Source of the DNA: Candidatus Scybalocola faecigallinarum
GTDB taxonomy: Bacteria > Bacillota > Clostridia > Lachnospirales > Lachnospiraceae
Assembly (NCBI GenBank): GCA_018711005.1
Contig: DVIT01000012.1
Location: forward strand, 87,170-151,169
Direction of reading: 5' to 3'
DNA: 64,000 nt
Under the pieces are notes generated by a model, which was not told where the DNA came from, made no database searches, and was given only the letters and a program-made list of their open reading frames with translations. Positions 2,080-29,791 of this stretch are shown piece by piece (within the stretch, counting starts at the first letter, position 1; each line of letters begins with the position of its first letter). The translations under genes were made by a program, and so were the position numbers.

Positions 2080-2886
2080 ATGAAGAAAAAAAAGAAAAGG
2101 AACTGGGTATTAAATATTATTCTTGTGATCGCCATTGTGTGCTTCCTTGGAAGCGGCGGTTATCTTTTGAAATATTACTGGGATAGCTGGCAGGCAGAAA
2201 AAAATATTTCCGCTCTGGAGGATATGATCCTGACCGATGAGGAGGCTGCTGCCCAGACCGGAACCGGCGACGGTTCCCTGGAAAGCGGAGAGTCGTCGGA
2301 CCGGCAGGCGGCTTCCAACCGTTATGCCCGCCTTTTGGAACAAAACCCGGATTTTATCGGCTGGATCCAGATCGAGGGAACGCCCATCAGCTATCCGGTC
2401 ATGTATACGCCGGATGATCCGGAATATTACCTTCATCGGAACTTTGATAAAGAGTATGAGTACAGCGGCCTTCCCTTTGTGGACGGCAGCTGTTCGCTGG
2501 ATCCCCGCAGCACCAATGTGATCGTTTATGGCCATAACATGAAAAGTGATACAATGTTCAGCCATCTTTTGGATTACCAGGATGAGTCCTTTTATAAAGA
2601 TCATCCCTACATAACCTTTAATACGATCTACGGCGATGCCCAGTATGAGATCGTGTCTGTGATCCTGGCGCGGGCTCTGTATGAGGATGAGGAAGGATTC
2701 CGCTATTACGGCATGATCGATGCAGCGTCACAGGAAGAATTTGATGAATATATGGCGAATATTCATGCAATGGAGTTGTATGATACCGGCGTGGACGCTT
2801 CCTACGGAGACCAGCTCCTGACCTTGTCCACCTGCGAATATTCCCAGGAAAACGGGCGTCTGGCAATTATTGCAAAAAAAAGATAG
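2080..2886 (+). CDS. Class B sortase
   Basis: N-terminal TM; 'NPDFIGWIQIEGTPISYPVM', 'NVIVYGHNM', catalytic 'LLTLSTCEYS'. Confidence 0.9.
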   Translation: MKKKKKRNWVLNIILVIAIVCFLGSGGYLLKYYWDSWQAEKNISALEDMILTDEEAAAQTGTGDGSLESGESSDRQAASNRYARLLEQNPDFIGWIQIEGTPISYPVMYTPDDPEYYLHRNFDKEYEYSGLPFVDGSCSLDPRSTNVIVYGHNMKSDTMFSHLLDYQDESFYKDHPYITFNTIYGDAQYEIVSVILARALYEDEEGFRYYGMIDAASQEEFDEYMANIHAMELYDTGVDASYGDQLLTLSTCEYSQENGRLAIIAKKR

Positions 2887-3003
2887 AATCTATAACGGAA
2901 ATGTGTTACAATACATTCATCAGGCATTGTATAAAATTACCAATTATGTTAATAATTTAACAGAAAAATTAGATCAAAACGTAAAAAACCAGGAGGTTGC
3001 CCT

Positions 3004-4215
3004 ATGAATGTATTTGTAGTTAATTGTGGAAGTTCGTCTTTGAAGTATCAGCTCATTGACGCTCAGTCTGAGCAGGTTCTTGCCAAAGGACTGTGTGAGC
3101 GCATCGGTATTGACGGCAGCCAGATCGTATTTAAGCCGGCCTGCGGCAAAAAAAGCGGAGAGAAGATCACCATCCAGGCGCCTATGCCGGATCACACCAA
3201 CGCGATCCGCATGGTGCTGGATTGCCTTGTCAATGAAGATTACGGTGTGATCGCCTCTTTGGATGAGATCGGCGCTATCGGCCACCGTGTGGCTCACGGC
3301 GGAGAAAAGCTGGCATCATCGGTGCTCCTTAATGATGATGTAGTCAGAGAGATCGAGGAGTGCTGCGAACTGGCTCCCCTGCATAATCCGGCCAATCTTA
3401 TTGGTATCCGGGTGTGCCATGAGCTTATGCCAAGTGTCCCTATGGCTGCAATTTTTGATACTGCATTTCATCAGACGATGCCGAGAAAAGCTTATTTGTA
3501 CGGCCTTCCCTACCGTTATTATACGGATTATAAGATCCGCCGCTACGGCTTCCACGGCACCTCCCACCGCTATGTTTCTCAAAAAGCTGCCCAGATCCTG
3601 GGCGTACCTTATGAATCCTTAAAGACCGTTGTGTGCCATTTAGGCAATGGCGCCAGCATTTGTGCTGTGCAGAATGGTAAATCTGTAGATACCAGTATGG
3701 GATTTACCCCTGTGGCAGGTCTTGTTATGGGAACCCGGTGCGGGGATATTGACCCGGCGATTGTAGAATATTTAACAGACAAAGAGAACAAAGACGTCCA
3801 TGAGATCAACCGGGTACTGAACAAGGAGTCGGGAATTTACGGCCTTTCCGAAGGTCTGGTAGATTTTCGGGACATTCGCAAGGGCTGCGAAGAAGGCGAT
3901 GAAAAGTGCCTGAGAGCCATGGATGTGTTTATGTATAATATTGCCACAAGAGTCGGCGGCTACGTGGCAGCCATGAACGGCGTGGACGCTATTGTGTTTA
4001 CGGCAGGGATTGGCGAAAACGGCGATAAGATGCGCAAAGATATTTGCGAGCAGTACTGGGGCTACTTAGGCATTAAGATCGATGATGAAAAGAACCGCAT
4101 TTCCGGTCAGGATGTGGTGATCTCTACACCGGATTCTAAAGTTAAGGTCCTTGTGATCGGTACAAACGAAGAACTGATGATCGCCCGGGAGACCATGGAG
4201 CTTGTAAAGGCGTGA
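3004..4215 (+). CDS. ackA: Acetate kinase
   Basis: Full-length 403 aa; 'VNCGSSSLKYQLID', 'HRVAHGGE', 'FDTAFHQTMP', 'YGFHGTSH', 'VVCHLGNGASI', 'FTAGIGEN'. Confidence 0.97.
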   Translation: MNVFVVNCGSSSLKYQLIDAQSEQVLAKGLCERIGIDGSQIVFKPACGKKSGEKITIQAPMPDHTNAIRMVLDCLVNEDYGVIASLDEIGAIGHRVAHGGEKLASSVLLNDDVVREIEECCELAPLHNPANLIGIRVCHELMPSVPMAAIFDTAFHQTMPRKAYLYGLPYRYYTDYKIRRYGFHGTSHRYVSQKAAQILGVPYESLKTVVCHLGNGASICAVQNGKSVDTSMGFTPVAGLVMGTRCGDIDPAIVEYLTDKENKDVHEINRVLNKESGIYGLSEGLVDFRDIRKGCEEGDEKCLRAMDVFMYNIATRVGGYVAAMNGVDAIVFTAGIGENGDKMRKDICEQYWGYLGIKIDDEKNRISGQDVVISTPDSKVKVLVIGTNEELMIARETMELVKA

Positions 4216-7265: not shown

Positions 7266-7526
7266 ATGAATTATACCTATATGGTACAGTGCAGTGACGG
7301 AAGCTTATACACAGGCTGGACCAATGACCTGGATAAGCGCATCCGCGCCCATAATGAAGGGCACGGCGCAAAGTATACAAGGCCCCGGCGTCCGGTAAAG
7401 CTGGTCTACTGGGAGGAATTTGAAACAAAAGAAGAAGCCATGAAGCGGGAGGCTTCCATAAAGAAGCTGACCAGAGCCCAAAAGGTCCGGCTGTGCAGCC
7501 GTCGGGACGGACAGTCTTTACTTTAG
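7266..7526 (+). CDS. GIY-YIG nuclease family protein (UPF0213/YhbQ-like)
   Basis: 'MNYTYMVQCSDGSLYTGWTNDLDKRIRAHNEGHGAKYTRPRRPVKLVYWEEF'. Confidence 0.9.
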   Translation: MNYTYMVQCSDGSLYTGWTNDLDKRIRAHNEGHGAKYTRPRRPVKLVYWEEFETKEEAMKREASIKKLTRAQKVRLCSRRDGQSLL

Positions 7527-7700
7527 GATGAGCTTTTGCAGTAAAAAAAAGACACCATAGTGAAAATCGAGGGCTTATCCGCAGATTCCCGGAAATACTA
7601 TAATAAATCTATACGTAACCGCATCACATGTATTGGACGGAAAGCCTTCGGTAGGGCCGCGGCGGCCTTGAGGATGCGTGGGAATAGGAGGGAATCACAC

Positions 7701-29352: not shown

Positions 29353-29381
29353 TTGACAATTATGCTGGCAGAGGTTATAAT
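29353..29381 (+). promoter_or_regulatory. Consensus sigma-A promoter of the orphan ncRNA
   Basis: TTGACA (29353-29358), 17-nt spacer, TATAAT (29376-29381). Confidence 0.92.
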
Positions 29382-29387
29382 AAAACC

Positions 29388-29685
29388 ATCAAAAGAAACC
29401 CGATAAAATAAGGCGAAAGAGAGGTACGGACCACCGAAGACTTAAGCTAAAAACCCAAAAAGCTTTAAAATTTCACCTTATATTTTTTATCAACTCAGCA
29501 AAAGTAAATCAGATTTTATTTTAATTAAAAGAAAGTTTGATTGAGCTGAAAGTAATAAAGGTATCAGGAGAATCATTTTAGAGAAGATTAAAGAATTCAG
29601 CGAAAGATGAGGTAAAGTCCAATGGATTCAATAGTCTTGTAAGGAGAGTATCGTTAGAAATAACGTTTACTCTCCTTATTTTTTT
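29388..29685 (+). ncRNA. Orphan structured non-coding RNA (class not identified)
   Basis: Starts just after a consensus promoter, ends in a strong intrinsic terminator (AAGGAGAGTA...TACTCTCCTT + T7); long closing helix GATAAAATAAGGcGAAA/TTTCaCCTTATaTTTTTTATC; no convincing ORF. Confidence 0.85.
29641..29685 (+). terminator. Intrinsic terminator of the ncRNA
   Basis: AAGGAGAGTA-tcGTTAgaaaTAACgtt-TACTCTCCTTA then TTTTTTT. Confidence 0.93.
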
Positions 29686-29754
29686 GTGCGTAAGTGCGCC
29701 CGGCAAGCGGCAGCCGGGGAAGGCATCTTCCCCGGTAATCCCAAAGGACATAAC

Positions 29755-29788
29755 AACAGCCCCGGAAAATGGTCTTTCCGGGGCTGTT
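29755..29788 (-). terminator. Terminator of the Bce-like operon
   Basis: AACAGCCCCGGAAA-atggtc-TTTCCGGGGCTGTT perfect 14-bp arms. Confidence 0.8.
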
Positions 29789-29791
29789 GGT

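Follow-up and report, generated by a model that had tools for sequence, protein, structure and literature searches.

A family of stand-alone Lachnospiraceae RNAs with a putative start-less ribosome-binding unit and a conserved micro-ORF

A stand-alone RNA gene in the window (the whole 64,000-nt stretch of DNA analysed) was found to belong to a large RNA family in Lachnospiraceae, a dominant bacterial family of the mammalian gut; we are highly confident that this RNA family is real and has no Rfam entry. Its members combine a 5' unit resembling a ribosome-binding site that has no start codon with a 3' micro-ORF of five or six codons next to the terminator. We propose, with a probability of roughly 40%, that the RNA is abundant and docks ribosomes, a 30S subunit at the start-less site and a 70S ribosome at the micro-ORF, which would stabilise the RNA and might also titrate ribosomes at initiation.

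The initial annotation of the window described a perfect TTGACA-N17-TATAAT promoter, a transcript of about 298 nt and a strong intrinsic terminator, and all three were recovered from the sequence. The promoter (TTGACA at 29353–29358, a 17-nt spacer, TATAAT at 29376–29381, + strand) matches the consensus at 12 of 12 positions. The predicted transcript of ~298 nt (29388–29685, + strand) runs from a start placed by the −10 box to the end of the terminator (29639–29685, + strand), which consists of a hairpin (29639–29679) and a T-tract, the stem overlapping the micro-ORF stop codon. Among 138 distinct family promoters, TTGACA is present in 128 and TATAAT in 96, with both hexamers perfect in 91 and spacers of 16–18 nt; the high expression attributed to the RNA is suggested by its promoter. 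The −10/initially transcribed sequence TATAATAAAACCATCAAAAG, observed at 29376–29395 of the window and at loci L035, L037 and L046, also precedes unrelated protein-coding genes nearly unchanged, in this genome and in relatives, and its recurrence suggests an extended promoter/start consensus. Between the RNA and a convergent FtsX-type permease gene lies another strong hairpin, flanked by T and A tracts (29754–29789), which is probably a shared bidirectional terminator.

Searches with Rfam 15 returned no family at the gathering score anywhere in the window, and 6S and raiA, proposed as the first classes to check, gave no match over the window even at E ≤ 10. In related loci, no family was matched in 20 at E ≤ 0.1, and none over the RNA in a further 17 at the gathering score. 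His_leader reached 34.5 bits against a gathering score of 49, a sub-threshold match rejected as originating from terminator hairpins; the hairpin at 29754–29789 likewise causes sub-threshold His_leader matches. The suggestion of a stand-alone RNA outside the known classes therefore held. The family has apparently not been described before, although an earlier unnamed prediction is possible, for instance in a supplementary candidate list such as that of PMC8040213; a search for the unit motif in the texts of open-access papers revealed only two unrelated chance strings.

The RNA had also been called an orphan, a description that gave way to a widespread family. BLAST against 60 relatives detected homologues in three congeners at 86, 72 and 81% identity, 286–364 nt long, while matches in other genera were limited to a short core; these were separate stand-alone RNAs sharing AAAGAGAGGTACGGACCACCGAARACTTAA. 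Of 299 Lachnospiraceae genomes, 42 contain a 26-nt core pattern with ≤3 mismatches, whereas the reversed pattern, used as a control, was found in 0. An exact degenerate pattern matched at least 119 stretches in a species-level genome collection. Among the matches listed, the titled records were almost all Lachnospiraceae, together with a few MAGs bearing broader or odd labels, and carriers included Roseburia inulinivorans, Anaerobutyricum hallii, Eubacterium ramulus, Mediterraneibacter and Blautia. A sequence-only model of the 5' unit matched 53 of 120 sampled Lachnospiraceae genomes (~44%), a prevalence that is a lower bound, with a unit consensus somewhat skewed to the search pattern, since the genomes are a sample and the copies used to build the model had been selected by pattern. 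A class-wide sample of 148 genomes outside Lachnospiraceae gave just three weak partial matches. An RNA gene with near-perfect promoters in ~44% of sampled genomes of this family is without an Rfam entry, and its carriers include culturable species such as R. inulinivorans and A. hallii.

The middle region varies in both length and sequence across the family, and is nearly missing from minimal members of ~200 nt, which contain little beyond the unit, the micro-ORF and the terminator (L061, L083, L137). A further compact ~200-nt copy with two units, the micro-ORF MDIQEQH* and a terminator was observed on a viral contig (L212, 10850–11110), 3.5 kb from a FuFi-1 RNA (7373–7533); the flank appears chromosomal, perhaps marking a prophage edge, and no similar phage record was found. 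The window's own genome contains two tandem paralogous RNAs (L031, G000:C49:3000-8000, + strand, ~1780–2390 and ~2490–3200), located between a GATase_5-domain gene and a CNNM/CorC-type gene. They have the same promoter/start sequence and carry AAGGAGGAGATTCCATTGAAAAAG units instead, and in the first of them a micro-ORF encoding MIEPVQQ* abuts the terminator, an ending like that of the window RNA.

The putative start-less ribosome-binding unit of the window RNA spans 29413–29445 (+ strand), with an SD-like GAGAGG at 29419–29424, CCG in place of a start codon at 29434–29436, and an in-frame TAA at 29443–29445. The consensus from 157 non-redundant copies across the family, AAGAAARGGAGGTACRGWCCACCRRAAACNTAA, combines a strong Shine-Dalgarno sequence with correct spacing and CCG or CCA at the start-codon position; third positions behave as non-coding, CCR being almost never replaced by CCY. 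The 5' part is complementary to the 16S 3' tail GGATCACCTCCTTTCTA, taken from three relatives as the own-genome 16S was not found, and the predicted pairing energy of the window unit with this tail is −13.2 kcal/mol. The conserved span is ~33 nt, approximately the length that a 30S subunit covers. Each RNA carries 1 to 8 units, ~54 nt apart, with a single unit in 110 of 150 loci and tandem arrays in some species (e.g. L050, L108). The most strongly conserved part lies 3' of the SD, where the bases GUACRGWCCACCRRAAACNUAA are retained; these bases beyond the SD would imply an additional specific ligand. An unusually single-stranded unit was considered and rejected, since folding gave 0.53 unpaired against a background of 0.52.

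The reach of this RNA-level conservation well past the SD, the tandem arrays, and the stand-alone, strongly promoted nature of the RNA are also what would be expected if the unit imitated, or itself formed, the binding site of an RNA-binding protein or small RNA that normally acts on ribosome-binding sites, and which the RNA would titrate as CsrB titrates CsrA. We regard this as unlikely: the micro-ORF is left unaccounted for, CsrA is excluded, and the core motif has no shared mRNA targets in the window genome, where the window copy of GAGGTAYRGWCCA is the only match genome-wide in the assembly. A decoy for mRNAs sharing the motif was rejected on the same uniqueness, and motif-specific mRNA regulation is improbable, as the genome contains no other occurrence of the core. 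For a CsrA (RsmA) sponge RNA in particular, the repeated SD-like units, some of them with GGA, and a flagellin-like gene downstream of the RNA in three loci (L096, L133, L205) could be cited. However, GGA is missing from many unit copies, e.g. AGAGGTACAGTCCACCAAAAACTTAA, and the GGA-in-loops arrangement is absent; CsrA scored over the cut-off in 9 of 34 RNA-positive genomes versus 22 of 36 pattern-negative genomes, and CsrA is altogether absent from G000–G003, the genomes of the window and of its three congeners. This refutes the proposal for the window genome and leaves it with virtually no weight.

The transcript had been described as having no plausible ORF. This is correct for ORFs of normal length on the + strand, but a six-codon ORF preceded by an SD, conserved in the family, is present, so that the RNA is not strictly non-coding. 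The element (29609–29642, + strand) comprises GAGG at 29609–29612 and ATG GAT TCA ATA GTC TTG TAA at 29622–29642, encoding MDSIVL*, and the same layout was found in 124 distinct sequences, which are counts of sequences and not of independent events. Exactly five codons are present in 95 of the 124, the commonest peptides being MDSIV (24) and MDEIV (13), and the same peptide class occurs across many genera, with divergent peptides (MDNEM, MIEPAM, MEIAEHH) in some lineages. Start codons are ATG, TTG or GTG, with CTG in just 3, and stop codons are TAG (57), TAA (47) and TGA (20). Codon 2 is GAY in 102 and GAR in 9, while codon 3 shows AGY over AGR by 53 to 0, AAY over AAR by 18 to 1, and GAR over GAY by 22 to 1; in one congener (G002) the peptide is MDSVVL*, with Val and Leu codons changed synonymously. 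This coding-like variety of starts and stops, together with third-base changes that are synonymous only, points to a micro-ORF that is under selection at the level of the peptide. In 82 of the 124, the terminator stem starts inside the stop codon or directly behind it. The GAC/GAT alternation might have been explained by a GUCC/GGAY hairpin where the micro-ORF begins, but this was rejected, as no clear covariation was observed. Upstream of the unit in L086 and L121, one RNA carries repeated minimal ORFs, each preceded by a strong SD (GGAGGAGATTCCAATGCAGACATAA, GGAGGAGATTCCGATGCACACATAA), that encode M-Q-T* and M-H-T*.

Peptide-level selection on codons 2–5, and a peptide class shared so widely, would also fit a stabilised mini-mRNA, in which the 5' unit is just a stabiliser of the STAB-SD type, consistent with its position and with that precedent, and the MDSIV-like penta- or hexapeptide or its nascent chain is what matters. 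The 7-codon gene of microcin C is an analogue, as are peptides from minigenes that affect the very ribosome translating them. This account is possible but doubtful, as the peptide varies in the divergent lineages, no conserved processing or modification gene lies near family loci, and neither the bases beyond the SD nor the joining of the stop codon to the terminator is explained.

A leader-peptide-like ORF overlapping an intrinsic terminator likewise recalls an attenuator, in which translation of the micro-ORF would open the terminator and allow RNA polymerase to read into a downstream gene. In the window, however, the next gene lies antisense, and across the family no consistent gene follows: distinct downstream neighbours are on the same strand in 24 cases and on the opposite strand in 20 (p = 0.65), and upstream neighbours in 31 and 25. 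A raw same-strand downstream excess of 76 versus 32 is due to one orthologous cluster of 40. With no co-directional downstream gene in the window or consistently in the family, attenuation is highly improbable, and the view that the RNA does not sit beside a cis-regulated gene is supported by the lack of strand bias, which equally favours a stand-alone RNA. Apart from the three loci with a flagellin-like gene, some 40 loci are followed by one and the same recurring gene, which lies on the same strand and has an acidic N-terminal region.

None of 200 dinucleotide shuffles folds as well as the full RNA (z = −5.3), a value mostly due to the terminator, since z falls to just −2.3 when it is removed. 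RNAalifold analysis of the window RNA and its three congeneric homologues proposes a 5' region, including the unit, that is mostly unpaired, followed by a long central hairpin (29463–29583, + strand), a 3' hairpin (29584–29638, + strand) and the terminator. Changes on both sides that keep pairing were observed in 10 pairs of the whole structure, seven of them in the central hairpin, against a shuffle mean of 4.2 (0 of 500 reached 10) and 2–5 in slid controls, a test of limited power given four sequences and a structure derived from the same alignment. The central helix also appears when the window RNA and that of G003 are each folded singly by MFE. Covariation, suggested as a check, was detected, but mainly in this hairpin and not in the outer closing helix initially drawn by hand (GATAAAATAAGG..CCTTAT..TTTATC), several pairs of which are broken in congeners. 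A third hand-drawn helix (AAGATT..GAAT/ATTC..AGTCTT) was retained, and its loop would present the SD and AUG of the micro-ORF; this helix 8, with 96% of cells paired, is weak as covariation evidence because it is mostly invariant. The motif enrichment over a zero control, the consensus promoters, the peptide-level selection and the helix covariation, seen in many species, make an artefact or a degraded, functionless sequence scarcely credible.

Ribosome engagement is favoured because it explains the SD, its spacing, the footprint-sized conservation and the start and stop behaviour. The constant length of the micro-ORF, the fusion of its stop to the terminator, the consensus promoters, the absence of a cis target or of a shared mRNA motif in the genome, and the exclusion of CsrA also speak for it. 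In the proposed mechanism, the start-less unit would hold a 30S subunit, and no initiation would follow since CCR occupies the start position; the bound 30S would protect the 5' end in the manner of STAB-SD, and if the RNA were highly abundant the unit would withhold 30S subunits. A second ribosome would initiate at the micro-ORF, meet the terminator hairpin within five codons and occupy the 3' end. Together, these events would yield a long-lived RNA able to dock or titrate initiating ribosomes and thereby to buffer translation capacity. Against this reading, SD pairing alone leaves the strongest conservation, 3' of the SD, unexplained, and the unit is predicted to be no more accessible than usual; because the bases beyond the SD, the peptide selection and this accessibility are not fully explained, our confidence in the mechanism is limited. 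Titration would need an RNA abundance comparable with that of ribosomes, and a pure sponge role is weakened because most loci carry a single unit. Only tentatively do we extend the reading to a family-wide class of abundant RNAs that capture ribosomes and regulate or store the translation capacity of Lachnospiraceae, in the manner of a 6S RNA for ribosomes. If ribosome binding is true, this would be a new way of controlling translation; even without it, the family offers an unusually short five-codon ORF with clear peptide conservation and a new conserved RNA motif.

As a sponge, this RNA would resemble 6S and CsrB-type RNAs, which are abundant stand-alone RNAs with mimic sites. It differs from 6S in having no 6S match in Rfam, and from CsrB-type sponges in that the host genome is without CsrA and the site mimicked here would be a ribosome-binding site. 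With dual-function small RNAs such as SgrS/SgrT and SR1/SR1P it shares short length, stand-alone organisation, its own terminator and a small ORF, for which the start, stop and third-base evidence argues for translation; unlike them, its ORF has 5–6 codons and is fused to the terminator, and a genome search confined to the core motif identified no antisense-pairing region or target. Expression of minigenes of the lambda bar type causes peptidyl-tRNA drop-off or growth inhibition. Such minigenes (cited in PMC10192219 and PMC8708949) share with the micro-ORF an SD plus an ORF of a few codons. The present RNA differs from them as a conserved chromosomal stand-alone gene with peptide-level selection and start-less units. 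In STAB-SD, 30S binding blocks RNase J1 and prolongs RNA half-life. The element, located in the cry3A 5' leader of Bacillus thuringiensis, is SD-like, non-initiating and able to bind 16S/30S (PMC4113751). The unit described here is alike in placing an SD-like sequence, complementary to the 16S tail, near the 5' end with CCR at the start position, and would thus be non-initiating as judged from its sequence. STAB-SD belongs to the leader of an ordinary mRNA and is described simply as SD-like, whereas the present unit is conserved over ~33 nt and may occur in tandem, in an RNA whose sole ORF is a micro-ORF.
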